Shown here one piece after another: positions 2,339 to 23,695 of a stretch of DNA of 33,847 nucleotides. The stretch's first letter is position 1; each line of letters begins with the position of its first letter. The position numbers and the translations under genes were made by a program. The notes below the pieces were generated by a model, which was not told the DNA's origin, did not search any database, and was given only the letters and a program-made list of their open reading frames with translations. Origin of the DNA: a virus; IMG/VR virus record IMGVR_UViG_3300029268_000072, positions 1 to 33,847 of that record; one strand, written 5' to 3'.

Positions 2339-3979
2339 ATGAAAAACACAACCGCAATAATCATCAGCTTCCTCCGACCTGCATACACCATCGGGTGCAT
2401 CGAGTCGCTGAAGCGCCACTACCCCGACATCAACATCGTCGTGGGAGAAAACGCCGACCACAACGCCGAGCTCGCCAAGACCTGCGCGGAATACGGGGCC
2501 AAGTACGTCCAGCTCCCCTACGACTCCGGCGTCTGCGTCGGCCGCAACATGCTCATGAAGCACGTGGAGACGGAGTACGTCCTCGTGGGCGACGACGACT
2601 TCTTCTACGAGGAGCACACCGGCATCGACAAAATGCAGACACTCCTCAATGGACACCCCGAGATAGACCTCATCGGAGGCAGGGTGATCCAGGACGGAGT
2701 GGTACGAAACTACCAGGGAAGCATCGAGCGATACTCCCGCCACCTCATCAACCGGCCGATAAAGCTGGACGAGGCGGAATTTAAATACGACAGCGCAAGC
2801 GGACTGCGATACATCAAGTGCGACCTCACGTTCAACTTCTTCGTGGCACGCGTGGAGCGCATCAAAGACATCCCCTGGGACGAGCAGATCAAGGTGGCAT
2901 ACGAGCATGAGAGCTGGTTCATCGACCTGCAAGACGCCAAGGTAAACGTCTACTTCTCGCCGGAGCCAATCGTGATTCACAAGCCCGAGCACCTCCGCAA
3001 GGCGGTGGAAAAGGCGGACGCGCACCCGACATACCAAGCATTCAGAATGCGGCGATGCGACAAGGAGCGCTTCTATACCCGCCACAAGCTCGACTACCTC
3101 ATCGACATGAACGGCGTAAAGGACTACGCACCAAACAGCACCCAGGAGATCCGCAAGAACGATATGAAATTCGTGGACGTCTGCATCACCACATTCAAGC
3201 GGCCGAAAGCCCTGGAGCGGCTGCTCTTCTCAATCGCCGAGTACTATCCGATGGCGAACATCTACGTGGCCGATCAGGACAAGGTACTCGACCGCGCATT
3301 CTACAAAGACCTGCGGGACCGGCTGTACGATCACGGCCTGGTTAAACGCCTCTCCGTGGAGAGCTTGCCATACGACTGCGGCGTAAGCTACGCGCGCAAT
3401 CACCTCGTCACTTCAACGCCCAACAAATTCAAACTGATACTCGACGACGACATGGAATTCACCAAGGAGACGGACATCGGGAAATTCATCAAAATAATGG
3501 AGGCCGACAATCGAGCCGGCATCGTGGGCGGACTCATGAAGCAAAACGGAGTAGAGGTGCACTTTGAATTCGTGCCGGAGAAGAAAGGCGACGCCATCTT
3601 CCACACTGAGAATAAAACGAATTGGAAAAATCACCTGGGCGTGCGCTACAAGAAAAGCGGATGCGTGCTCAACTTCGCCCTCTTCAAAAAGGAGATCTTC
3701 GAAATCATTCAGTGGGATCCGGAGCTCAAGGTCACCGAGCATACGGACTTTTACCTGCGCTTCCAATCGCTCGCCTACAACGTGCTCTACACGCCGGACG
3801 TGGTGATAGGCCATCCGTCGGCCGAGCGGGATCCGGAATACAAACAGCTCCGCACCCGGGACGAATTTCAAAAGCTGATGTTCCGCAAGCACGGGGTCAA
3901 GCGCATGAAGTACCTGAACGGGCAGGTGGTCGAGCTCGCAAAGGACGGTTCGCTTACTCGCTATAAAGAAACGGCATGA
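2339..3979 (+). CDS. Tandem GT2-type glycosyltransferase
   Basis: This 546-residue protein contains two GT-A (family 2-like) domains. Domain 1 (about 1-270) begins with an I-I-I-S-F-L-R-P strand, has YDSGVCVGRN at 61-70 and a metal-binding DDD at 85-87. Domain 2 starts at about residue 276 with D-V-C-I-T-T-F-K-R-P, has YDCGVSYARN in the matching position and a second DDD at about 369-371. The repeat points to an internal duplication or a bifunctional enzyme adding two sugars. No membrane segment is seen, so it should act in the cytoplasm on a nucleotide-sugar donor. With the LicD-like and methyltransferase genes it forms a glycan-modifying cassette, perhaps for superinfection exclusion or virion glycosylation. 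Confidence 0.8.
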   Translation: MKNTTAIIISFLRPAYTIGCIESLKRHYPDINIVVGENADHNAELAKTCAEYGAKYVQLPYDSGVCVGRNMLMKHVETEYVLVGDDDFFYEEHTGIDKMQTLLNGHPEIDLIGGRVIQDGVVRNYQGSIERYSRHLINRPIKLDEAEFKYDSASGLRYIKCDLTFNFFVARVERIKDIPWDEQIKVAYEHESWFIDLQDAKVNVYFSPEPIVIHKPEHLRKAVEKADAHPTYQAFRMRRCDKERFYTRHKLDYLIDMNGVKDYAPNSTQEIRKNDMKFVDVCITTFKRPKALERLLFSIAEYYPMANIYVADQDKVLDRAFYKDLRDRLYDHGLVKRLSVESLPYDCGVSYARNHLVTSTPNKFKLILDDDMEFTKETDIGKFIKIMEADNRAGIVGGLMKQNGVEVHFEFVPEKKGDAIFHTENKTNWKNHLGVRYKKSGCVLNFALFKKEIFEIIQWDPELKVTEHTDFYLRFQSLAYNVLYTPDVVIGHPSAERDPEYKQLRTRDEFQKLMFRKHGVKRMKYLNGQVVELAKDGSLTRYKETA

Positions 3980-4185
3980 GACAAAACAACCCGACAGGAA
4001 CGGTCATCGAAGCATTAGCCGGCACCCGCTTCAAGGTGCAGATGGACGACGGCAAAGAGATCCTCTGCTACCTGGCCGGCAAGCTCCGGCTGAAGCGCAT
4101 CAACATCCTGGTGGGCGACAAAGTCGAAGTCGTCCTGGATCCGGCCGGAGGCACGGCTACGAATAGAATCGTTTGGCGGAAATAA
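3976..4185 (+). CDS. infA: Translation initiation factor IF-1 homologue
   Basis: The 69-residue product aligns by eye along its full length with bacterial IF-1 (72 residues in E. coli). It has G-T-V-I-E-A-L at 8-14 and FKVQMDDGKEILCYLAGKLR at 19-38. Then comes R-I-N-I-L-V-G-D-K-V-E-V at 41-52 and a final R-I-V-W-R-K. This is a single OB-fold S1-type domain that binds the A site of the 30S subunit during initiation. Its ATG overlaps the TGA of the glycosyltransferase by four bases. A phage-encoded IF-1 is rare. It is striking beside genes lacking Shine-Dalgarno sites, and might adapt host ribosomes to phage mRNAs (inference). Confidence 0.88.
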   Translation: MRQNNPTGTVIEALAGTRFKVQMDDGKEILCYLAGKLRLKRINILVGDKVEVVLDPAGGTATNRIVWRK

Positions 4186-4202
4186 AAATTATACGATATA
4201 AT
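4174..4202 (+). promoter_or_regulatory. Promoter, leaderless geometry, for the 4211 gene
   Basis: TGGCGG (4174-4179), 17 bases, then TATAAT (4197-4202); an 18-base alternative uses TTGGCG at 4173. The ATG at 4211 is eight bases after the -10 box, so the transcript should begin at or just before the start codon. It lies across the end of infA and would initiate the packaging and head operon. Confidence 0.55.
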
Positions 4203-4210
4203 ATAAACAT

Positions 4211-4627
4211 ATGATTACACGCGAAAATTTAAACAAACTGCACGCACTCACCAAGGCGGTGAATGATGCAAAGGAGTCGGCATCGGAGTACCTCCGCACC
4301 GCTCAAGACAGATTCAAAAGCCGAACGCACAAGCTGATGCGCGAGGGCAAAGAGATCGAGCTCACCGAGAAAGTATTGTGGGACGAAGTGTTCTACATGG
4401 GGCCGACATGCCAGGCGGGGAAGATCCTGCAAACGGTTCACCCTGAAGTGTTCGAGGGATACAAGAAGCAAGACGAGGCCGCAAACGAGCTGAAGAAATT
4501 CACGATCGTGGAACTCGGCGTCGACTACGCCGCACTCTCGCTTAGCGACTACCTGATGGTCACCGAGTCCCTCTTCGAGCTCATGCTCGGCGAGCGCGGA
4601 TTACCAACTAAGCCACCCTTAAATTAA
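4211..4627 (+). CDS. Hypothetical helical protein
   Basis: A 138-residue, largely helical protein. The first half (about 1-55) has charged heptad-like spacing that may form a coiled coil. The second half contains Y-M-G-P-T-C-Q-A-G-K-I-L and a long acidic helix. No family is recognised. It starts in a CATATG context directly downstream of a strong -10 box and is followed after four bases by another small gene. Its place just upstream of the terminase genes makes a packaging accessory role possible but unproven. Confidence 0.65.
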   Translation: MITRENLNKLHALTKAVNDAKESASEYLRTAQDRFKSRTHKLMREGKEIELTEKVLWDEVFYMGPTCQAGKILQTVHPEVFEGYKKQDEAANELKKFTIVELGVDYAALSLSDYLMVTESLFELMLGERGLPTKPPLN

Positions 4628-4631
4628 ACCT

Positions 4632-4895
4632 ATGGCAAAAGACGACAAAATTCTCAAGGCCGACACAACGGTCAAAAAGGACTTCAACTACTCCCTCGAC
4701 GGGGTGAACTTCAGCGTCACCATCCGGATCGACGTCAAAAAGGAGCTTAAGGCAATGATCCAAACCATCGACCGATGCAAGGCCGACATGGAGCTCGTAG
4801 TACCGGAGCTCAAGCTGATGTCCCTCGAGATGCCCGACCTGACGACGCCCGTTGTGAAATCGGTGGAGGAGGCGAGCACTGAAAGCGGAACCTAG
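4632..4895 (+). CDS. Small hypothetical protein before terminase
   Basis: An 87-residue protein with a short lysine-rich N-terminus, a beta-like segment (YSLDGVNFSVTIRIDVKKEL at about 20-39), then one helix with a cysteine. The tail is acidic and serine/threonine-rich. No recognised domain. It is probably cotranscribed with the 4211 gene (four-base gap). Its TAG stop is embedded in a six-base-pair hairpin (4891-4906) that begins the noncoding region before the terminase. Confidence 0.6.
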   Translation: MAKDDKILKADTTVKKDFNYSLDGVNFSVTIRIDVKKELKAMIQTIDRCKADMELVVPELKLMSLEMPDLTTPVVKSVEEASTESGT

Positions 4896-5073
4896 CGACG
4901 GCTAGGCAGAGGCCGGAAGTGTCTGTACTTTAACAGGGTGAGGGCGAACCACGGAGGGAGATCACATCAAACCCGTAGGTGCATCAATGACGTTCGGGTC
5001 GCACCCGTTCGGTCCGGCGGTGGAATCCCGCCTTAATCGTCTTCTCCACCGAGAGCACAACTTCAAAACGCTT
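4891..5073 (+). other. Structured noncoding region before terminase
   Basis: About 180 bases without a convincing gene. Visible inverted repeats are CCTAGC-GACG-GCTAGG (4891-4906), CGGGT-CGC-ACCCG (4995-5007), and CGGTGGA (5018-5024) pairing with TCCACCG (5045-5051). An alternative GGCGG/CCGCC hairpin lies inside the last pair. The position directly upstream of the small terminase gene is where packaging (pac or cos) sites are often found. A long 5' leader or small structured RNA is the other reading. There is no U-run, so it is not a simple terminator. Confidence 0.4.
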
Positions 5074-5739
5074 ATGGAAGAACCAACAGCAACAATCAAA
5101 TTAACGCCAGGAAACCGCACTGTGAAAGGGAGGCGGTCTTTGCCGATGGCTGAAACACGACAGACGGGCAAGCAGAGCCCTGTCGCCTACCGATTCAAGG
5201 ATCCACGGGTCGGCGAAATGGACGTCCTCAATAGCGCCAACGGGTGGTGGATAGGGGTCGAGGGCGGTATAAAACTCCAAAAGCTGGTAGATGCCTATTG
5301 TTTCTACTACACCGACGACGAAGCTATATCCTACGCGGGTATTTCGATCGGCCAGCTCAAATACTTCCAGGAGCTACATCCCGACTTCTATGCCATAAAA
5401 CACGCCGCTAAGCGCCAGCCGGACATGCATGCGAAGAAGAAGATCGTAGAGATAGCGGGCAAGGACGTGCAGTGGGCTGCGTGGTGGCTGTCTCGAACGC
5501 AAAAGGAGACATTCAGCACCCGGGTCGAAGCCACTGGTGCGAACGGGCGCGACTTATTCGACGGCCTCACCGAGCGATACAAGGAGCTGGTAGAAAACCT
5601 GCGAAAAGCGCATAAAGAAAACAAACAATATGATCCAACCGATGATAAAGAACACGCTAGCGCACTTGATGCCGGACACATTGATGCCGGACCGGTCGGG
5701 GCTAGAGATGAAGCCACCCCTGCCGAAACTGTCGCCTGA
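5074..5739 (+). CDS. terS: Terminase small subunit
   Basis: From the ATG at 5074 the product is 221 residues. The core has the helix-turn-helix DNA-recognition pattern of small terminases: Y-T-D-D-E-A-I-S-Y-A-G-I-S-I-G-Q-L-K-Y. It continues with H-P-D-F-Y and a conserved W-W-L-S-R-T-Q-K-E-T-F-S-T-R region before the acidic tail. TerS binds the packaging site and regulates the motor. The frame is open back to 4987, but that part looks noncoding and structured. A later ATG at 5146 is also possible. The 3' end overlaps the large subunit gene, which supports the assignment. Confidence 0.8.
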   Translation: MEEPTATIKLTPGNRTVKGRRSLPMAETRQTGKQSPVAYRFKDPRVGEMDVLNSANGWWIGVEGGIKLQKLVDAYCFYYTDDEAISYAGISIGQLKYFQELHPDFYAIKHAAKRQPDMHAKKKIVEIAGKDVQWAAWWLSRTQKETFSTRVEATGANGRDLFDGLTERYKELVENLRKAHKENKQYDPTDDKEHASALDAGHIDAGPVGARDEATPAETVA

Positions 5740-7141
5740 CGACCTCCTGGCACTGTACGGCTTCGCTTCGATGTTCCGCGTCGAGGGCGATACCGGCGAC
5801 AAAAAAATAACCGAGGGTCAGCTCCACATCTTCGGGGCTATTATTCTGCGCCATCACAACCGCGTCGAGATCATCTGCTCAACCCAGTACGGGAAGTCCC
5901 TATGGGTGGCGCTCGCCGCAATCATCCTCACGTGCTTGTTGGGCAAGGTGGTGGTCATCGTCGCTCCGTCAAAGGACAAGGCGAAGATCATCATGCGCTA
6001 CTACATCGAGCACCTCGGAGACAATCCTCTCTTCTTCACGAAGCTCGAAAAAAACAGCCGGCTCGAGAAGCTCCGCATGGAAGAAAACAAGGAGCGCATC
6101 ATGCTCAACAACGGCGGGGGCATCTTCGTCGTCTCAACCGATGAGAAGAACAGCAAGAAGTCCCTGGAAGCGGCGATGGGTCAAGGAGCGGAGATCGTGA
6201 TCGGCGACGAATTCTGTCTCGTGAGCGACAACACCGAGGCGACCATCTTCCGTATGATCGCCGGAAAGGGAGAGGACGCGACCTATGTGAAGATCGGCAA
6301 CCCGTTCTACTCGGCACCGCCAAACAGTCACTTCCTCCGCACCTGGCTCCAGGTCAACACGTACCACCGCATCTTCATCGACTACCGCCAGGCGCTCAAA
6401 GAGGGGCGATACTTCCAGGAATTTATCAACGAAGCGAAAAGCAAACCGCTCTTCGACATCCTCTTCGAGTGCCTATTCCCTGACCTCTCCGTGATGGACA
6501 AGGACGGCTACCGACTGCTGGTACTGCCCGAGCAAGTGAAATTCGGCGTCACGCCGGAGATCCTGAAAGCGGCGATGGCAAAGGCCAAGGAGGAGCAAGG
6601 GGGCGTGCTGAAGATCCGGCCAAAGCTCGGAGGCGACATCGGAGGAGGCGGGGACTGGAACGTCTTCGTGGTGCGCTGGAACCGCATGGCATGCGTGGTG
6701 CGCCAAAGCAAGACCAACGACACAATGACCAACGTCACCGCGGTCCAGGAGCTGATGGCAGAATTCGGAATCGCGGCGGAGGACGTGAACCTCGACGACA
6801 TCGGCATCGGCCGAGGCGTGAGCGATCGTCTCAAGGAACTGGGGATAGCGATCAATCCGGTCAACGTCGGCGAGCCGGCCGTATTCAATCCGGACTCATT
6901 CGCCAACCTCAAAGCCGAGCTGTGCTGGGAAGCGCGCAAGTGGGCGATGGCTGACGACGCCCGTGTGGATAAACGGGACGAATGGGTACAGCTCACCTGG
7001 CTGAAGTACAAGACGCTCTCCGATCGCAAGGTGCAGATGGAGCCAAAGGCAGACCTGAAAGCGAGAACCGGAGCATCGCCGGACTTCGCTGAAGCATTTT
7101 ATTTGACATTCGCAGAGCAACCGTTCGTCGGTTTTGTTTGA
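5630..7141 (+). CDS. terL: Terminase large subunit
   Basis: The 503-residue protein is the packaging motor ATPase and headful nuclease. Walker A-like C-S-T-Q-Y-G-K-S is at residues 83-90, and Walker B I-V-I-G-D-E is at 189-194. A C-terminal RNase H-like nuclease has GGDIGGGGDW (334-343, metal-binding D336), a second aspartate cluster in L-D-D-I-G-I-G, and a third near S-P-D-F-A-E-A-F. The frame is open from 5630, overlapping terS by 110 bases. The true start may be the ATG at 5708, which would leave a 32-base overlap and remove a poorly conserved N-terminus. Confidence 0.92.
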   Translation: MIQPMIKNTLAHLMPDTLMPDRSGLEMKPPLPKLSPDDLLALYGFASMFRVEGDTGDKKITEGQLHIFGAIILRHHNRVEIICSTQYGKSLWVALAAIILTCLLGKVVVIVAPSKDKAKIIMRYYIEHLGDNPLFFTKLEKNSRLEKLRMEENKERIMLNNGGGIFVVSTDEKNSKKSLEAAMGQGAEIVIGDEFCLVSDNTEATIFRMIAGKGEDATYVKIGNPFYSAPPNSHFLRTWLQVNTYHRIFIDYRQALKEGRYFQEFINEAKSKPLFDILFECLFPDLSVMDKDGYRLLVLPEQVKFGVTPEILKAAMAKAKEEQGGVLKIRPKLGGDIGGGGDWNVFVVRWNRMACVVRQSKTNDTMTNVTAVQELMAEFGIAAEDVNLDDIGIGRGVSDRLKELGIAINPVNVGEPAVFNPDSFANLKAELCWEARKWAMADDARVDKRDEWVQLTWLKYKTLSDRKVQMEPKADLKARTGASPDFAEAFYLTFAEQPFVGFV

Positions 7142-7156
7142 GTTTCGTTTAATATG

Positions 7157-7170
7157 TGTTATCATATAAT
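7157..7170 (+). promoter_or_regulatory. Promoter motif TGTTATCATATAAT
   Basis: A perfect TATAAT (7165-7170) lies ten bases before the ATG at 7181. The preceding bases GTGTTATCATATAA are repeated exactly at 9668-9681 before the prohead protease gene, so this is a shared extended -10 promoter. No good -35 hexamer is visible. Confidence 0.6.
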
Positions 7171-7180
7171 CACATCAACC

Positions 7181-7378
7181 ATGTCTCAATCAAAAACAAA
7201 ACGATTCCGAAAAGAAGTAAGGCGAGTGGTCGACGCGAACTTCGGCATCGGTATGGAGGCGCTCTCAAACATCACCAGACCACGACCGCGCTGGTGCCCA
7301 AAGGTCGTGTGGATGCTGGCGTACGTTCCGCTCTTCAAGAAGCAATACCTGCATCTTATTTATAAGCACATGAAATAA
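7181..7378 (+). CDS. Small membrane-associated hypothetical protein
   Basis: From the ATG at 7181 the product is 65 residues. A basic N-terminus (SKTKRFRKEVRRVVD) is followed by R-P-R-P-R-W-C-P-K and a hydrophobic V-V-W-M-L-A-Y-V-P-L-F stretch that could insert in or lie on a membrane. The frame is also open from 7154, but 7181 follows the promoter -10 box by ten bases and is preferred. No family is recognised. It sits between terL and the 7381 gene, with only two bases before the latter. Confidence 0.55.
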   Translation: MSQSKTKRFRKEVRRVVDANFGIGMEALSNITRPRPRWCPKVVWMLAYVPLFKKQYLHLIYKHMK

Positions 7379-7380
7379 AT

Positions 7381-7596
7381 ATGGCAGAAAAACAAGAAAC
7401 CAAAATCAACAAGGTACCGCTCAAAGAAGCGGAGACGCGAGAAGAAAAACTGCTCCTCGGTTTTCTTTCACAAGAAGCGGAGCGTGTTGAATTCGGACAA
7501 ATCGTGGTAGAATTCACTATAAGAAACGGCAAGATCACGTACATGAAGTCGAACGAGATCAGCCGCACGTTCAACGTAGGCACGCCAGGTGCTTGA
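7381..7596 (+). CDS. Small phage protein, DUF2292-like
   Basis: A 71-residue protein whose second half, VEFGQIVVEFTIRNGKITY (about 36-54), resembles the small DUF2292-type proteins (F-G-x-V-x-[hydrophobic] then N-G-K-I). The N-terminal half is charged and helical. Function is unknown. The start is in the AAATATGG context and is two bases after the previous stop. The resemblance is by memory of the family pattern only. Confidence 0.5.
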   Translation: MAEKQETKINKVPLKEAETREEKLLLGFLSQEAERVEFGQIVVEFTIRNGKITYMKSNEISRTFNVGTPGA

Positions 7597-7621
7597 CCCT
7601 TGAACAGTTTATTGCAACAAT
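7593..7621 (+). promoter_or_regulatory. Putative promoter for portal transcript
   Basis: TTGACC (7593-7598), 17 bases, AACAAT (7616-7621); TTGAAC at 7600 with TATAGG at 7621 is a less well spaced alternative. The geometry matches the two clear TTGTTG-17-TA[CT]AAT promoters at 20507 and 25430 that precede the same RNA element. Confidence 0.4.
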
Positions 7622-7632
7622 ATAGGCAACAG

Positions 7633-7670
7633 TCCTTACGGAAGAACCGAGGGATGCGAGCCAAAGCATC
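7633..7670 (+). promoter_or_regulatory. Conserved leader RNA element, copy 1 (start-proximal)
   Basis: The core CTTACGGAAGAACCGAGGG is shared with copies at 20553 and 25478. Hairpin A pairs TCCT (7633-7636) with GGGA (7651-7654), and CGG (7639-7641) with CCG (7647-7649), around the loop AAGAA. Hairpin B pairs GATGC (7653-7657) with GCATC (7666-7670) and so competes for bases 7653-7654. There is no U-run. Hairpin B ends three bases before the portal ATG, so in this copy control would act on translation initiation rather than termination. Confidence 0.7.
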
Positions 7671-7673
7671 ACT

Positions 7674-9665
7674 ATGGAACTTCCACACTTTATAAAATCA
7701 ATCGGCGACAGGTTTAGAGCAAAGCGATACCTCGGTCTTCTGACCGGCGCACTCCCTGTCAACTCACGCTCATGGGGCGCGAGCGACTTTCTTAATGCAC
7801 TCGAAATCTCCCTCTACACAAACCGAGCGATCGCAAAACGCGCGGACAAAGTAGGCGAGATTGAATTCGTACTCAAGGACGCCAAGGATAACGAAATCGA
7901 AAACGACCCAGTCCTCGACCTCCTCTACAAACCAAACAAGCTGTTCTCCGGCGCTGACTTCTGGTCGCTGTACCAAAAATACTACGACGCAGTCGGCGAG
8001 GTTTACATCATGCTCGAAAGCGACAGGCAGATCTTCGAAGCAAAGAGGATCACGGCAATGCATCTGCTTGTCCCCACCGCAGTCACACCGCACTTCAACA
8101 AGGACGGGTCACCGGAGAAATTCGTGTACCGCACCAACGACGCAACGGTGGAGTACAAACCGGAGCAAATTATTTACACACACAACCCTGATCCAAAGAG
8201 CCCGCTACGGGGCCAGTCGCTTCTCAAGGCCGGAGTGAATGCCATCCAAACGGAAACGCAGATCAGCACCTACCACTCAAGGATCCTCGAGAACGGGGGC
8301 AAGGTGGAGGGTGTCTTCAAATTTAAGACCGGACCGCTCACCGAAAACCAGCTCACGCAGATCAAGGACAAGTACCAAAAGGAATACGGCGAAGCGAAGA
8401 AAGCCGGACTGCCTCTCTTCCTCGGAGGAGACGCGGACTACGTCAAGACAGGTCTCACACCGGACGAGCTCGCATTCCTCGAAGCGAAGAAAATGACGCT
8501 CGAGGATATTTGCATACTCACCGGCGTACCGAAATCACTCCTTGCCTCAACCGCTGACGTGAAGTTTGACAATGCCGATGCCGACCGCGCTATCTTCTTG
8601 CGCGAGACAATCAAGCCGCTCCTGAAGAAGCTCGCGGTGGCACTCGACACGACCCTCTTCCCTGACGGCCGCAACCTGACGTTCATCGACCCGACTCCGG
8701 AAAACACGGAGGAGAAGCGAAAGAACATCGAGACGGCAAACACCATCAGCGCACTCACCACAAACGAAAAGCGCAAGCTCCTTGGAGAACTCGGCATCAT
8801 CCTCGACCCAGTGGGCAAGGAGGGCGACGACATCCTCATACCGTTCAGCGTATCGCCTCTAGGGGCAGAACCGGCACCAGCGCCGGCCCAGGAGGATCCT
8901 GAAGAAAAGGGTATCGAGACAAAGGAAATCGAGCACCCGCTCCGCGACTACGATATGCGGCGCCTCTACTGGGGCATGCAGATCAAACGCATGGACGCGC
9001 GCGAGAAGAAGATGAAGAACGCGCTCAAGGGATACTTCGATGACCAGGAAAAGCGAATCACCGAAGCGCTCTCCCCTGCCAAGTCCCGATACTTCCGCAA
9101 GACACAGCTCGACGAACTGCTCTCAATCGAAATGGAGGTCAAGATCGGCAAGAAGATATTCATCCCGATACTGACTGAGCTTCTGAAGCAAGCCGGCATC
9201 GATGCGATCGAACTCGCGGGTAGCAAATACGGCTTCATCCTCAAAGACGAAATCAAAAGCTGGCTGGAGAATCGAGCCGACATCTTCTTGAATAAAATCA
9301 ACGAGACGACGTTCGCCAAACTCCAGGACGAATTTAAAGCGAGCTTAGAAGCAGAGGAGGGTCGAGAGGGTCTGATCAGCCGGATCCAGGATGCCTACGG
9401 AGGCATACAGAAATCAAGGGCTGGCCTCATCGCACGCACCGAGACACACAACGCAACTCAGTACGGAACGATGCAGGGGTACAAACAGGGCGGACTCACA
9501 ACCAAGATATGGGTCGCAGTCCTGGACGGAGCAACGAGGGACTCTCATGCCGCTGTCGACGGCGAGGAGCGTCCGCTCGATAGGCCATTCAGCAACGGGC
9601 TGATGTTCCCCGGGGATCCGAAAGGCGACGCCGGAGAAGTTATTAATTGCCGATGCGTTATCTAG
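7674..9665 (+). CDS. Portal protein fused to MuF-type head protein
   Basis: A 663-residue fusion. Residues 1 to about 380 match HK97-type portal proteins, which form the dodecameric DNA gate at one capsid vertex: A-L-E-I-S-L-Y-T-N-R-A-I-A-K-R-A near the N-terminus, and a V-G-E-V-Y-I-M-L segment. A proline/glutamate-rich linker around 395-415 leads to a C-terminal MuF/SPP1 gp7-like head morphogenesis domain. That domain has A-R-T-E-T-H-N-A-T and ends with D-A-G-E-V-I-N-C-R-C-V-I. These are usually separate adjacent genes. Fusion places about one MuF per portal subunit. Translation start control by the adjacent RNA element is likely. Confidence 0.88.
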   Translation: MELPHFIKSIGDRFRAKRYLGLLTGALPVNSRSWGASDFLNALEISLYTNRAIAKRADKVGEIEFVLKDAKDNEIENDPVLDLLYKPNKLFSGADFWSLYQKYYDAVGEVYIMLESDRQIFEAKRITAMHLLVPTAVTPHFNKDGSPEKFVYRTNDATVEYKPEQIIYTHNPDPKSPLRGQSLLKAGVNAIQTETQISTYHSRILENGGKVEGVFKFKTGPLTENQLTQIKDKYQKEYGEAKKAGLPLFLGGDADYVKTGLTPDELAFLEAKKMTLEDICILTGVPKSLLASTADVKFDNADADRAIFLRETIKPLLKKLAVALDTTLFPDGRNLTFIDPTPENTEEKRKNIETANTISALTTNEKRKLLGELGIILDPVGKEGDDILIPFSVSPLGAEPAPAPAQEDPEEKGIETKEIEHPLRDYDMRRLYWGMQIKRMDAREKKMKNALKGYFDDQEKRITEALSPAKSRYFRKTQLDELLSIEMEVKIGKKIFIPILTELLKQAGIDAIELAGSKYGFILKDEIKSWLENRADIFLNKINETTFAKLQDEFKASLEAEEGREGLISRIQDAYGGIQKSRAGLIARTETHNATQYGTMQGYKQGGLTTKIWVAVLDGATRDSHAAVDGEERPLDRPFSNGLMFPGDPKGDAGEVINCRCVI

Positions 9666-9667
9666 CG

Positions 9668-9681
9668 TGTTATCATATAAA
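9668..9681 (+). promoter_or_regulatory. Promoter motif GTGTTATCATATAA
   Basis: Identical over 14 bases to the motif at 7157. The -10 box TATAAA (9676-9681) is six bases before the ATG at 9688, which predicts leaderless transcription of the prohead protease gene. The motif overlaps the end of the portal gene. Confidence 0.55.
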
Positions 9682-9687
9682 AACATT

Positions 9688-10689
9688 ATGAAGCAGAAAT
9701 TTACAAAAGGAGAGAAAGCGTACTTGCAAATGCCGGTGAAGGTGAAGTCCATCGACAAAGAGCTCGGCACGCTCGAGGCGATATTCTCCACACAAGACGT
9801 CGATCGCCACGGAGACATAGTCCTGCAAGACGGGTGGGATATTTCAATGTTCAAAAAGAACCCCGTCATTCTCAACTCTCACAACTACGGCGACGCCGCA
9901 GAGGTGATCGGGAAAGCGTCGGGCGTGAAAGTGGAGGCCAAAAAGCTCCAAGGTAAAATCACGTTCGCGGTCAATGAGAACCCAAAGGCCAAGATCATCT
10001 TCGACCTCTACGCCGGCGGATTCCTCAACGCGTTCTCCGTGGGCTTCATCCCCACCGCATTCAAGACCAACAAGGATGGCAGTACCGATTGGTACACCAT
10101 CGAATCGGCCGAGCTCCTGGAGGTATCTGCTGTCTCCGTTCCGGCCAACGCACGCGCTCTTGCGAAAGCAAAGGGTATCGACATCGACATGCTAAAATCA
10201 AACGACGATGAAGAACACAAACCAACCAATGAGGACGGCGAACCGGAACCCGAGGGAGACGCTGACGCGCTTCCAAAAGGTGACGAAGTACCGCCAGCTC
10301 CAGGGGAACCCGCTCCCAAAGACGGCGACGGTGGTGAAAGCGAATCAGACGAGGGTGATGAAGAAGCCGGCGCTGATGCAGGAGCACCAGCAGGTGACGA
10401 AGTTATTCCCGAAAAGGATAAAGAGAAGGATAAAGAGGGAGACGAAGCCGAAGCCGGTGCAGAAGCAACTCCTGAAGAGCCGGTCCAGGCAAGCTATGCT
10501 TCCAAGGTAGTGAAAGCGATCGCAAACATCGACTCACGCCAACGGGAGGAGCTGAAGCGGGCGGCCAAGATCATCAAGTCCATCCTAGACGGCGACGTAG
10601 AGGGGACGAGAGTCGAGGCAAAGGTGCACGAACAGATTCAGAAGCGTAAAATTAACCAAGCGATCCGATCCCTCATGAAAGTGAGGTAA
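9688..10689 (+). CDS. Prohead protease with acidic scaffold-like tail
   Basis: From the ATG at 9688 the protein has 333 residues. The first 170 are an HK97-type (U35) assembly protease: H-G-D-I-V-L-Q-D-G-W at 41-50, catalytic His in N-S-H-N-Y-G at 65, and Ser in A-F-S-V-G-F at 117. From about 175 to 270 it is dominated by Glu, Asp, Pro and Gly, and the last 65 residues form charged helices ending in basic residues. This tail probably works as the scaffold that organises the capsid protein, as no separate scaffold gene lies between it and the capsid gene. The ATG at 9667 is less likely because it precedes the -10 box. Confidence 0.88.
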   Translation: MKQKFTKGEKAYLQMPVKVKSIDKELGTLEAIFSTQDVDRHGDIVLQDGWDISMFKKNPVILNSHNYGDAAEVIGKASGVKVEAKKLQGKITFAVNENPKAKIIFDLYAGGFLNAFSVGFIPTAFKTNKDGSTDWYTIESAELLEVSAVSVPANARALAKAKGIDIDMLKSNDDEEHKPTNEDGEPEPEGDADALPKGDEVPPAPGEPAPKDGDGGESESDEGDEEAGADAGAPAGDEVIPEKDKEKDKEGDEAEAGAEATPEEPVQASYASKVVKAIANIDSRQREELKRAAKIIKSILDGDVEGTRVEAKVHEQIQKRKINQAIRSLMKVR

Positions 10690-10789: not shown

Positions 10790-12136
10790 ATGAGTGAAAT
10801 TCTAAAGCGCATTAAGGCACTTTTGGCACAGGGGTTCGCCTCTGCTGACGAAAAGGCCAAGCTCGCTGCCGACGTTGCAAAACTTAAGGCAGTGGATCAG
10901 GCGGCTATCGGAGACGAGGTGGCGAAAGTCAGCGACCTCTCTGAAACCAAGAAGATCCAGAGTGAGGATGAAGCGGATGCTGAAGTAGAAAAGGGTATCA
11001 AAGCCCTCTTCGACCGTCATGCAGATCGCATCGAGAAATCCCTTAAAACGGAGATCAAATCCTACCTCGACGAACAGCGCACCCTCATGGAGCAGAAAGC
11101 GGGTGTATACCATCCGTCACTTGTTGGTAAGCGTAAGGAGCTCTCGAGCCGCCTACGTGACATCACCAAGGCACTGCTCTCCGGAGACGACACCAAGCTC
11201 AAGGAGATGACGACCGATGCATCGGGCTCACCGTTTGCGGGTTACACCGTGGACAGCGAACTCTCTGCTGAAATCCGTCACCTCGTACTTGAGTACGGCG
11301 TAGCCCGTAGAGAGATGATGGCGATCCCTCTAAGCAAGGGATCCTACAAGGCCAACAACCTTGCAACTGATGTCACCGTCTACTGGGTAGATGAGGGCGC
11401 AGTCGTCAGCTCAACACAGGCAGTCCTCGGGCAGGAAGAACTCACACTCAAGAAACTTGGAGCCATCGTTACGATGACCTCCGAATTGCTTGAGGATACC
11501 GAGATCGACTTCATTTCGTTCTTGGCATCACGTGTCGCTGAGGGCTTCGCGCGAGCGGAGGACTTGGCGTTCTTCCAGGGTGACGGCACTTCAACCTACG
11601 GTGGCTTCACCGGCTTGCTCAACGCAACCGACGTCAACGAGGTGACGCTTGCCGGCACGACTTTTGCCTCAATGGATGCTGATGACTTGCTCGACATGGT
11701 CGACGCGACACCTAGCGGAGCTTTGGCTAACGCCAAATTCTACTACCACCGCACGATCAAGAGCATCATCAGAAAGCTCAAAGCTGCGACAACTGGAGAG
11801 TACATCTACCAGCTTCCGTCACAGTCCGGACCGGCAACGGTTTGGGGATACCCTGAGGTTCTTGTGGAGGCAATGCCTGGCATTACCGACACAGCCGCAG
11901 ACACGTCATTCGTTCTCTTCGGAGATTTGCGAAAGGCATGTATCCTGGGCTTCAAATCCACTGGCTTGGTCGCGTCGCGCTTCAACGCTGGTACGGTGAG
12001 AAATGTCGCAAACAATGCTGACATCAACCTCATCACTACCGACCGAGAAGCCGTACGATGGACAGAGCGAACGGGCTACATCCGCATCATTCCGACTGCG
12101 GTCACGAAGCTCACTACTGCGGCGGTCTCCGCCTAA
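10790..12136 (+). CDS. Major capsid protein, HK97 fold
   Basis: The 448-residue protein has a charged helical N-terminal delta-type region (1 to about 130), likely removed by the upstream protease. The HK97-fold body follows: A-R-R-E-M-M-A-I-P near the N-arm, then K-L-G-A-I-V-T-M-T-S-E-L-L-E-D-T in the spine region. F-F-Q-G-D-G-T-S-T-Y-G-G-F-T-G-L-L (about residues 262-278) is typical of this fold, and D-R-E-A-V-R-W-T-E-R-T-G-Y is at the C-terminus. It builds the icosahedral shell. Gene order protease then capsid is classic. It is preceded by a folded leader and followed by a very stable hairpin. Confidence 0.93.
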   Translation: MSEILKRIKALLAQGFASADEKAKLAADVAKLKAVDQAAIGDEVAKVSDLSETKKIQSEDEADAEVEKGIKALFDRHADRIEKSLKTEIKSYLDEQRTLMEQKAGVYHPSLVGKRKELSSRLRDITKALLSGDDTKLKEMTTDASGSPFAGYTVDSELSAEIRHLVLEYGVARREMMAIPLSKGSYKANNLATDVTVYWVDEGAVVSSTQAVLGQEELTLKKLGAIVTMTSELLEDTEIDFISFLASRVAEGFARAEDLAFFQGDGTSTYGGFTGLLNATDVNEVTLAGTTFASMDADDLLDMVDATPSGALANAKFYYHRTIKSIIRKLKAATTGEYIYQLPSQSGPATVWGYPEVLVEAMPGITDTAADTSFVLFGDLRKACILGFKSTGLVASRFNAGTVRNVANNADINLITTDREAVRWTERTGYIRIIPTAVTKLTTAAVSA

Positions 12137-20632: not shown

Positions 20633-21619
20633 ATGGAAATCGTAGGACGACAAATAGAATTCGGAGTCGCAACAGAAGCGAGCCGAGGTTCCGCAGAAAC
20701 TACTGCGGACAAGTGGATGCGAAAAGTCACGGCAAACGTCGTTGAACGCGCAACGCATGCGCTTGATGACAGTACGCGCGGACGACTTGAGGACGGCGAG
20801 GGTCGCCGAAAAGTGCAGTCCCACATCGAGGGCGACGTCGAGGGTATCCTCCACGCCGATGTTCTCGGGTGGTTCCTCGCAAACATCTACGGAGTGGTCA
20901 ACACCACGACCGTAACGGGATCGGTAAAATCTCACGTCTTCACTCTTCGCCAAAACATCCAGCACCAATCGCTGACACTCTTCGCAAAGGACGGCTCCGT
21001 CCAGCAAAGCGTATTCAGTAACGCGATGATCAACACACTGGAGATCACCGCCGCAATCGACGACTACGTTCGCTTCAGCGCGAGCTTCCTCGCCGCAGTC
21101 GCCGCATCAAACAGCGCGACCCCGAGCTATGATACCGAGTACGACTTCGTCGCACGCGATATCACTGTGAAGATCGCCGACTCTGAAGCAGGACTCGCCG
21201 GCGCGACAGCAACCAAGGTCAAAGACCTCGGCATCAAGTGGGACCAGGGACTCATCCGCGACCACGTCGTCGGTGCATACGCTCCGGGCGACATCTACAA
21301 CGCCCGTCTCATGATCGACGGAAACTTCACTCTGAACTTCGCCGACGAGACATTCAAAGACCTCTACCTCGGCAACACTGCCAAGTACATGAGCATCACG
21401 ATTGCCGGAGAAGCCGACATCGGATCGGGCAACTTCCCTACCATCACCATCGTGCTCAACAAGGTACAGTTTATGGACTGGAACCGAGCCGGCGGAGCAA
21501 ACGAACTGGTCACCGAACCGATCACGTTCCGCGCATTCTACAACCCAACGGATTCGGAGCAGTCGACCGTAACCGTCAAGAACCTCACAGCTTCGTACGC
21601 TAACGTACCGAGCGCATAA
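20633..21619 (+). CDS. Major tail (tube) protein
   Basis: A 328-residue beta-rich protein with few lysines clustered and many Thr/Ser. It starts with V-G-R-Q-I-E-F-G-V-A-T-E-A-S-R-G, a common opening of siphovirus tube proteins. It contains A-A-I-D-D-Y-V-R-F-S-A-S-F and ends with P-I-T-F-R-A-F-Y-N. Its place after the terminator candidate and before the frameshifted chaperone and tape measure makes the call firm. It forms the hexameric rings of the tail. Expression is apparently controlled by its own promoter and leader attenuator, as expected for a protein needed in large amounts late. Confidence 0.85.
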   Translation: MEIVGRQIEFGVATEASRGSAETTADKWMRKVTANVVERATHALDDSTRGRLEDGEGRRKVQSHIEGDVEGILHADVLGWFLANIYGVVNTTTVTGSVKSHVFTLRQNIQHQSLTLFAKDGSVQQSVFSNAMINTLEITAAIDDYVRFSASFLAAVAASNSATPSYDTEYDFVARDITVKIADSEAGLAGATATKVKDLGIKWDQGLIRDHVVGAYAPGDIYNARLMIDGNFTLNFADETFKDLYLGNTAKYMSITIAGEADIGSGNFPTITIVLNKVQFMDWNRAGGANELVTEPITFRAFYNPTDSEQSTVTVKNLTASYANVPSA

Positions 21620-22150: not shown

Positions 22151-23695
22151 ATGGATCAAAGGCAACTATCAATCGTACTTAAGCTCCAGGACGAGGCATC
22201 GAAAGAACTTCGAAAGCTGTCCGGCGAGCTCGATACCGCACAAAAAAGCACCTCCCGTTGGGGCGGTGCCTTGGAGTATGTGGCTGGCGCAGCCAAGTAC
22301 GCAGTAGCGGCACTCGGAACGGCGGCTCTTGCGGGTGCAACCTGGGGTGTGAGCGTTGCCGCGCAACTCGAAACTGCACAGGTCGGCCTCGGCACACTTC
22401 TCGGATCCACCGAGAAAGCGGCGGCGACTGTGGAGCGACTGAAGAAAGAAGCGGCACGCACGCCGTTCGAACTCCCGGGTCTAACCCAGGCAGTCCAGCT
22501 CCTCACCTCCGTCACCAAGGACGGCGACAAATCAATCGACATCATTCTCAACATCGGAGAGGGACTCGCAGCGATGGGCAAAGGCCAGGCGGAACTTGAC
22601 CGCATCATTGTGAACCTCCAGCAGATCGCGGCGGTCGGAAAAGCAGCCACGATCGACATCAAACAATTTGCATTCGCAGGTATTCCGATTTACGAAATGC
22701 TCACCGAGACAACCGGCAAGTCCGGAGAAGCACTCGCCGAGCTCATCGATAGCGGAGGGGTGACATTCGACCTGCTCACAAAGATGTTCGACGAAGCCAA
22801 CAACGCCGGCGGTCGTTTCTTCAACGCATACGTGAACCAGTCCGGCACGTTCAACCAGGCGATGTCGAACATGAAAGACAGCGTCGGAATCCTTATGGCC
22901 GACCTCGTAAAAGAGACGGGCATATTTGGCGGACTGACTCAGGCAATGATTGTCTCCTCCCAGTGGATCGGAAACTACAAGCAGAACATGGCGGACGCGC
23001 GCGACACCTTGCTCGAGTGGATCAACCTGCTCGACCAAAAGACAGGCCTCGTCACATTGCTCAAAGACGCATGGGCAAACCTCGTTTTTATATTCAACGA
23101 CCAGCTGAAGCCGGCACTGATGGAACTGTGGGAGACGCTCCAGCCGTATAAGCCGTACCTCGAGGCACTCGGACAGGTACTCGGCACCATGCTCGTGATC
23201 GCAATCGGCGGGCTGATCATAATCGTCGGCGGACTCGCCGCAGGACTCGTCCAGCTCCTCACGTGGATCACCAAAGTGGTCGACGCAATTATGTCGTGGC
23301 TGAAGCCGGCACTCGATGCCATCGGTACCACAATACTCGCCGTCTACGACTCAACCATGAAGCTCATTGACGCATTCAAAAGCGCATGGGAGTGGGCCGG
23401 CAAGGTGGCAAGCAAGACCGGTAGCTTCGTCTCAAGTGCGGCAACCAGTGTCGCAAACGCGATTCTCCCTGGCCGTGCTTCAGGCGGACCCGTAACAGCC
23501 GGAATGCCGTACATGGTAGGCGAACGCGGTCCGGAATTGTTTGTACCAAAGTCATCAGGCAGTATTATTCCAAATGGAGGAATGGGAGGCGTGGTGGTCA
23601 ATGTCTATGGGGATGTTTCAGGAAAAGAGCTCGTTGCAAAAGTCCAGGAGGGAATAATGCAATCGCTTAGCCAAAACATGAGGTTCGCAGTATAA
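22151..23695 (+). CDS. Tape measure protein (short)
   Basis: 514 residues, helical, with alternating polar and hydrophobic segments. An N-terminal coiled-coil region (L-Q-D-E-A-S-K-E-L-R-K-L-S-G-E-L) leads into the conserved A-A-Q-L-E-T-A-Q-V-G-L-G-T-L-L-G-S-T tape-measure core. Strong hydrophobic helices at about 345-375 may form the DNA-ejection channel. The end resembles the usual R-A-S-G-G-P-V motif and M-V-G-E-R-G-P-E-L-F-V-P. At roughly 0.15 nm per residue, the tail should be near 77 nm, short for a siphovirus. No peptidase or lysozyme insert. Confidence 0.92.
   Translation: MDQRQLSIVLKLQDEASKELRKLSGELDTAQKSTSRWGGALEYVAGAAKYAVAALGTAALAGATWGVSVAAQLETAQVGLGTLLGSTEKAAATVERLKKEAARTPFELPGLTQAVQLLTSVTKDGDKSIDIILNIGEGLAAMGKGQAELDRIIVNLQQIAAVGKAATIDIKQFAFAGIPIYEMLTETTGKSGEALAELIDSGGVTFDLLTKMFDEANNAGGRFFNAYVNQSGTFNQAMSNMKDSVGILMADLVKETGIFGGLTQAMIVSSQWIGNYKQNMADARDTLLEWINLLDQKTGLVTLLKDAWANLVFIFNDQLKPALMELWETLQPYKPYLEALGQVLGTMLVIAIGGLIIIVGGLAAGLVQLLTWITKVVDAIMSWLKPALDAIGTTILAVYDSTMKLIDAFKSAWEWAGKVASKTGSFVSSAATSVANAILPGRASGGPVTAGMPYMVGERGPELFVPKSSGSIIPNGGMGGVVVNVYGDVSGKELVAKVQEGIMQSLSQNMRFAV

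Follow-up and report, generated by a model that had tools for sequence, protein, structure and literature searches.

A compact tailed phage carries a Patescibacteria-derived initiation factor IF-1 with changes on its ribosome-facing side

Introduction

Phage genes for translation initiation factor IF-1 have so far been reported from huge phages. IF1 and IF3 genes occur in such genomes and were proposed to redirect host translation (PMC7162821), and translation initiation factor 1A belongs to the core genes of the Jug phages, the genomes of which are 360–402 kb long (PMC12363816). Besides Jug, an IF-1 is encoded by Lak phages (~540 kb), by other huge phages and by Sinorhizobium phage Phosso (469 kb), whose protein is annotated as IF-1. 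These genomes are very large and many of them carry several translation genes, and in such company the role of IF-1 itself is hard to isolate. Phages also encode ribosomal proteins such as bS21, and such copies of translation parts have been suggested to promote phage production (PMC6375957, PMC9723584). Unlike bS21, which is a ribosomal protein, IF-1 is a transient initiation factor.

Here, we describe an altered IF-1 in small phages. The stretch of DNA that was analysed (the window) is the 33,847-nucleotide IMG/VR virus record IMGVR_UViG_3300029268_000072, which encodes a terminase, a portal–MuF protein, head, tail tube and tape measure proteins, an endolysin, RecT and RusA. In contrast to the huge phages, IF-1 is the sole translation gene seen in this ~35 kb phage genome, and neither tRNA genes nor a second IF-1 were found in the window. 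The annotated huge-phage IF-1s are 42–48% identical to the window protein. A small IF-1-like protein, annotated as hypothetical, is also found in the Bacteroides phages DAC16 and relatives (41–48% identical to the window IF-1), but their genomes are much larger (~178 kb). Another IF-1-like protein is present in MT835508, an unannotated gut record of 46.7 kb. A literature search of partial coverage found no description of IF-1 in a phage of Patescibacteria.

Results

The phage IF-1 gene, a homologue of infA, is a plus-strand ORF at positions 3976–4185 that encodes 69 residues; its length, coordinates and motifs are as originally given. It lies in the following gene order:

296–670, + strand: RusA-like resolvase, start of the conserved gene block (PF05866, 24.8 bits; 62–69% identity in relatives)
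2339–3979, + strand: family 2 glycosyltransferase (GT2), 546 residues (PF00535, 92.9 bits; 53–68% identity in relatives)
3976–4185, + strand: phage IF-1, 69 residues (Pfam, NCBIfam, PDB and AlphaFold/Foldseek; three phage lineages)
4211–4627, + strand: conserved 138-residue protein, the gene after IF-1 (46–53% identity in relatives, 69% in G761)
5073–5739, + strand: terminase small subunit, from an internal start within ORF 4987–5739 (phrog_4102, E 8.6e-5)
5630–7141, + strand: terminase large subunit (phrog_2, E 1.1e-17; PF03237)
7674–9665, + strand: portal/MuF fusion protein (phrog_2662, E 1.6e-85)
10790–12136, + strand: major head protein (phrog_10, E 6.8e-44)
20633–21619, + strand: tail tube protein (PF18906, 80.6 bits; 79–84% identity in relatives)
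22151–23695, + strand: tape measure protein (PF20155, 83.2 bits)

The tape measure protein is consistent with a siphovirus-like tail.

The original prediction that the 69-residue protein is IF-1 is borne out by Pfam, PDB and fold searches alike. The Pfam family eIF-1a (PF01176) matches the ORF with 57.1 bits (E 1.4e-15, cut-off 30.2) over model positions 5–64 of 64, and the second-best family, RsgA_N, reaches 32.8 bits. The top NCBIfam model is TIGR00008 (infA), with 58.0 bits against an equivalog cut-off of 61.15. The top matches among PDB sequences are twelve bacterial IF-1s (best E 2.6e-14). The AlphaFold model (34 sequences) has a mean pLDDT of 85 and displays the strand and short-helix order of IF-1. 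Its closest PDB folds, as found by Foldseek, are IF-1 chains (TM 0.84–0.87), while RsgA is at TM 0.77. A better match to another small OB-fold family was not found. The RsgA N-terminal domain and S1-like families are rejected on the Pfam scores and the fold matches, the GTPase domain of RsgA is absent from an ORF that stops at 69 residues, and a non-IF-1 OB family is contradicted by the IF-1 match taking in the C-terminal RIVWR strand. ORF 3976–4185 is a genuine IF-1.

Related phages and prophages were sought with the tail tube protein as query. Two relatives, G004 (seen as L005, IMGVR_UViG_3300005077_000121; 35.6 kb) and G392 (seen as L054; 34.9 kb), have portal proteins that are 63% and 54–55% identical to that of the window, respectively. 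The window proteins map onto both in collinear order, with the contig ends at differing points, a pattern that fits near-complete genomes of ~35 kb with a circular map. A fourth copy of the gene is found in L002, a fragment record of 7.9 kb, the IF-1 of which is 96% identical to the window protein. Comparison of these two genes gives a dN of 0.036 and a dS of 0.584 (dN/dS ~0.06), so the phage IF-1 is under purifying selection. These values, together with the conservation of the locus in three phage lineages, exclude a chance ORF. Among annotated phages, there are no DNA-level relatives of window positions 3000–8000.

In the window, L002, G004 and G392, IF-1 is located between GT2 and the gene of the 138-residue protein. 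In the first three, the GT2 stop and the IF-1 start share the sequence ATGA, and in G392 the two ORFs have 17 nt in common. Because of these overlaps, IF-1 is likely to be translationally coupled to GT2. Here again the original prediction stands: the gene belongs to a compact tailed phage and lies a short way upstream of the genes for the terminase and the structural proteins. A further relative, G761 (37.3 kb), has a portal that is 67% identical to that of the window. It contains RusA, GT2 and the 138-residue gene in the same order, but its GT2 stop lies ~20 nt before the start of the 138-residue gene, and IF-1 was not found elsewhere in this genome either. Since both flanking genes are adjacent in G761, IF-1 is cargo, and it is dispensable. 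Loss of IF-1 from G761 and an earlier branching of G761 are not told apart by the portal tree, in which the outgroup branch is too long. The synteny kept in three phage lineages and the existence of a relative that lacks only IF-1 at this site rule out host contamination.

The nearest cellular relatives of the phage IF-1 are infA products of Patescibacteria, namely those of REEB51 (L012; 61–65% identity) and of Nomurabacteria (47–49%). The phage proteins share the OB fold and the conserved core residues with these housekeeping factors, but the setting of the genes is different. In the host contigs that were read, infA adjoins ribosomal protein genes, and in Nomurabacteria also rpoA, whereas the phage copy resides between GT2 and the 138-residue gene. 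A tree with host and phage IF-1s, which confirmed the placement of the protein among IF-1 proteins, contains 117 rows and is built on 73 columns, too few for its deeper forks. All four phage IF-1s group in a single clade (support 100/99) inside a set (99/94) that includes 18 Patescibacteria hosts; this clade is separate from the other viral IF-1s taken from IMG/VR. The nesting of the phage clade within Patescibacteria IF-1s shows that the gene was acquired from such a host. In the class of REEB51, the sampled genomes with a match carry a single IF-1 (272 of 286), as do nearly all of the phylum (362 of 380 with a match); phylum-wide, it is the class of REEB51 that matches the phage profile best. 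As the Nomurabacteria relatives suggest, the host class is probably Paceibacteria.

Proteins distantly related to the portal and to the tail tube are found in 5 and 6, respectively, of 384 genomes of the class of REEB51, one of them in a 146 kb contig. Their identity is 24–31% for the portal and 31% for the tail tube (in G363), and no second IF-1 was found in these genomes. The ultra-small Patescibacteria are therefore the probable host of the window phage, and the assignment goes no further because these relatives are distant and their genomes have no second IF-1. A search of GTDB genomes with an alignment of phage IF-1s only returned no relatives, and a search with a single phage IF-1 protein returned three host infA genes. 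A scan of IMG/VR with an alignment of host and phage proteins gave 115 IF-1 stretches, some of which are small contigs of cellular DNA. L061 was rejected as a phage IF-1 because of its cellular dnaK/nifU context, as was L094, which is identical to the E. coli IF-1.

The four phage sequences were compared with 77 hosts residue by residue (E. coli numbering). K39, R41, R66 and R70 (K36, R38, R64 and R68 in the window protein) are present in all four. Other positions are changed in the phage proteins. Position 18 is A/G instead of the host loop proline, and position 21 is a new R. Position 46 (window N43) is N, where 74/77 hosts have K/R; position 64 (window T62) is T/S, where K/R is found in 76/77 hosts; and position 65 is N instead of G. 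K/R at position 43 and W at position 69 also set the phage proteins apart from essentially all hosts. None of the 77 hosts has the phage residues at positions 43, 46, 64, 65 and 69. In alignment with close hosts, the phage proteins also have a two-residue insertion in the β4–β5 loop. A basic residue at 46 and 64 is usual for IF-1, though not demanded by the curated family models.

In C. difficile IF1, modelled on the T. thermophilus complex, R41 and R46 contact A1492/A1493, K39 contacts G530, the β1–β2 loop enters the minor groove of helix 44, and R64 and R66 are on the uS12 side (PMC10913371). Loss of the helix 44 contact residues had been named as evidence against the original prediction, and the outcome is divided: K39, R41 and R66 are kept, while the basic residues at 46, which contacts A1492/A1493, and at 64 are lost. 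Of the nine diverged core columns, six are among the 18 columns (out of 60) with a contact or an NMR perturbation (hypergeometric 0.016, a value that varies with how contacts in this hand-assembled set are counted and that ignores shared ancestry), which is suggestive of divergence concentrated on 30S-facing positions. The net charge of the phage IF-1s is 2 to 5, within the range of the hosts (median 4), and the basic residues lost at 46 and 64 are matched by those gained at 21 and 43. This suggests that contacts with the 30S subunit were relocated rather than abolished.

The genes of the window lack Shine–Dalgarno sites, as was originally noted for the packaging and structural operons: SD-like motifs precede 0/21 ATG genes in the window, 1/22 in G004 and 0/26 in G392. 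The further idea that this absence singles out phage genes for the phage IF-1 does not hold. Such motifs precede only 4/83 Patescibacteria host genes, compared to 3/83 in a control interval. Initiation without Shine–Dalgarno sites is common to these hosts and phages, and the absence of these sites thus cannot separate phage from host mRNA. Leaderless starts were also rejected as a phage-specific feature, with −10-like motifs near starts in 3/21, 5/22 and 6/26 genes of the three phages versus 18/83 in hosts.

Discussion

We give a probability of about 0.55 to the reading that the phage protein is a working, host-derived IF-1 that would compete for the 30S A site and, by an altered grip on helix 44, shift initiation in favour of the phage. 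The phage lineage would have acquired infA from a Patescibacteria host and then altered the ribosome-facing side of its product. During infection, the protein would be produced through translational coupling to GT2, the gene before it, and, judging from the conserved contact residues, may bind the host 30S A site via K36, R38, R64 and R68 (window numbering). Competition there with the single host IF-1 is plausible. Helix 44 would be held differently, with N43 in place of K/R46 and with changed β1–β2 and β4–β5 loops, and this altered hold could shift initiation kinetics or start-site stringency toward phage production. Several observations stand against this reading. The loss of R46 and K64 could weaken binding, the gene is dispensable in G761, and host genes are also devoid of Shine–Dalgarno sites, leaving no sequence feature by which phage starts could be told from host starts. 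The assignment of the phage to Patescibacteria is, besides, indirect. It is a tentative proposal that a specialised small-phage IF-1, with no basic residue at 46 and with reshaped loops, changes which start sites Patescibacteria ribosomes accept. If true, a single gene would take over translation initiation in hosts that make no use of Shine–Dalgarno pairing.

The main rival of an altered grip is a simple dose effect, which we consider rather unlikely. Here the phage IF-1 would be equal to that of the host and would supply more factor while phage mRNA floods the cell, and its surface changes would be drift or co-adaptation to the ribosome of one host. The retention of K39, R41, R66 and R70, the host-like net charge, the offsetting basic residues at 21 and 43 and the purifying selection all fit a mere increase in dose, but drift is difficult to reconcile with the same unusual residues being kept across three lineages with portals 54–63% identical, and with N46, T/S64 and N65 being absent from every sampled host.

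Shut-off of host translation is improbable. An IF-1 with altered release would block the A site or subunit joining, and phage mRNA would be spared by its timing or abundance. The changes do coincide with the contacts to A1492/A1493 and helix 44 (PMC10913371), and bound IF1 prevents formation of bridge B2a (PMC13345285). However, the late genes of the phage depend on the same ribosomes and lack Shine–Dalgarno sites just as host genes do, which leaves selective sparing without a visible basis.

E. coli IF1 and OB proteins of the cold-shock type have been proposed to act as RNA chaperones or transcription antiterminators. A phage IF-1 acting in this way would aid read-through into the downstream late operon, and its gene does lie shortly before those of the terminase and the structural proteins in every lineage that carries it. 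This role has only a slim chance: it would not need the 30S contacts K39, R41, R66 and R70, which are fully conserved, and G761 has the same operon without IF-1. A slighter chance still attaches to the proposal, made purely by analogy, that the phage IF-1 might shield the decoding centre from abortive-infection nucleases or A-site toxins by occupying the A site, where IF-1 holds A1492/A1493 (PMC10913371, PMC13345285). Finally, another small OB-fold family (RsgA N-terminal or S1-like) or host DNA misassembled into the contig is a negligible prospect in spite of the RsgA_N match, given the far higher IF-1 score, the tree placement and a locus kept in independent phage assemblies.

On the favoured reading of a competing IF-1 with an altered grip, the phage protein may change how infected cells start protein synthesis. 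A lone IF-1 that is under selection and changed on its ribosome face, together with a relative that has no IF-1, constitutes a natural plus/minus pair, which makes the role of a lone phage initiation factor directly testable, and this in hosts whose translation seems to begin without Shine–Dalgarno sites.

Additional features of the locus

The two-domain GT2 (2339–3979) is kept in every relative, including the one without IF-1, and possibly modifies a surface or virion component. A TATAAT-like (−10-like) box at window positions 4190–4213 is located just before the ATG of the 138-residue gene and has matching sites in L002, G004 and G761. It could yield a nearly leaderless transcript that begins just after IF-1.

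The terminase large subunit ORF of G004 (L005, positions 6761–9907) is 1048 residues long and has apparent intein-like insertions that are not present in the 503-residue window version. At the ends of L002 (1–130 and 6190–7925), the right end resembles a cellular chromosome in being AT-rich (34% vs 55% GC) and in coding for a signal-peptidase-like protein; it is a prophage junction, or else the assembly is chimeric. L056 (IMGVR_UViG_3300010163_003696, 14.8 kb) is a phage-like fragment in which an IF-1 from a different branch is found near a RusA-like gene.

Upstream of the terminase small subunit there is a structured RNA of ~110 nt:

4935–5062, + strand: structured RNA, a closing helix and three hairpins

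It is found in five lineages (window, L004, L005, G392 and G761), and 10 of its 27 pairs show compensatory changes. In the alignment, 92.6% of cells are paired, compared to 80.5% in shuffles (0/500 on every measure) and 35–53% when the structure is slid. There is no Rfam match to this RNA, and when viral contigs were scanned for its exact motif, matches occurred only in this phage group. It could be a packaging signal, a regulator or a ribozyme.
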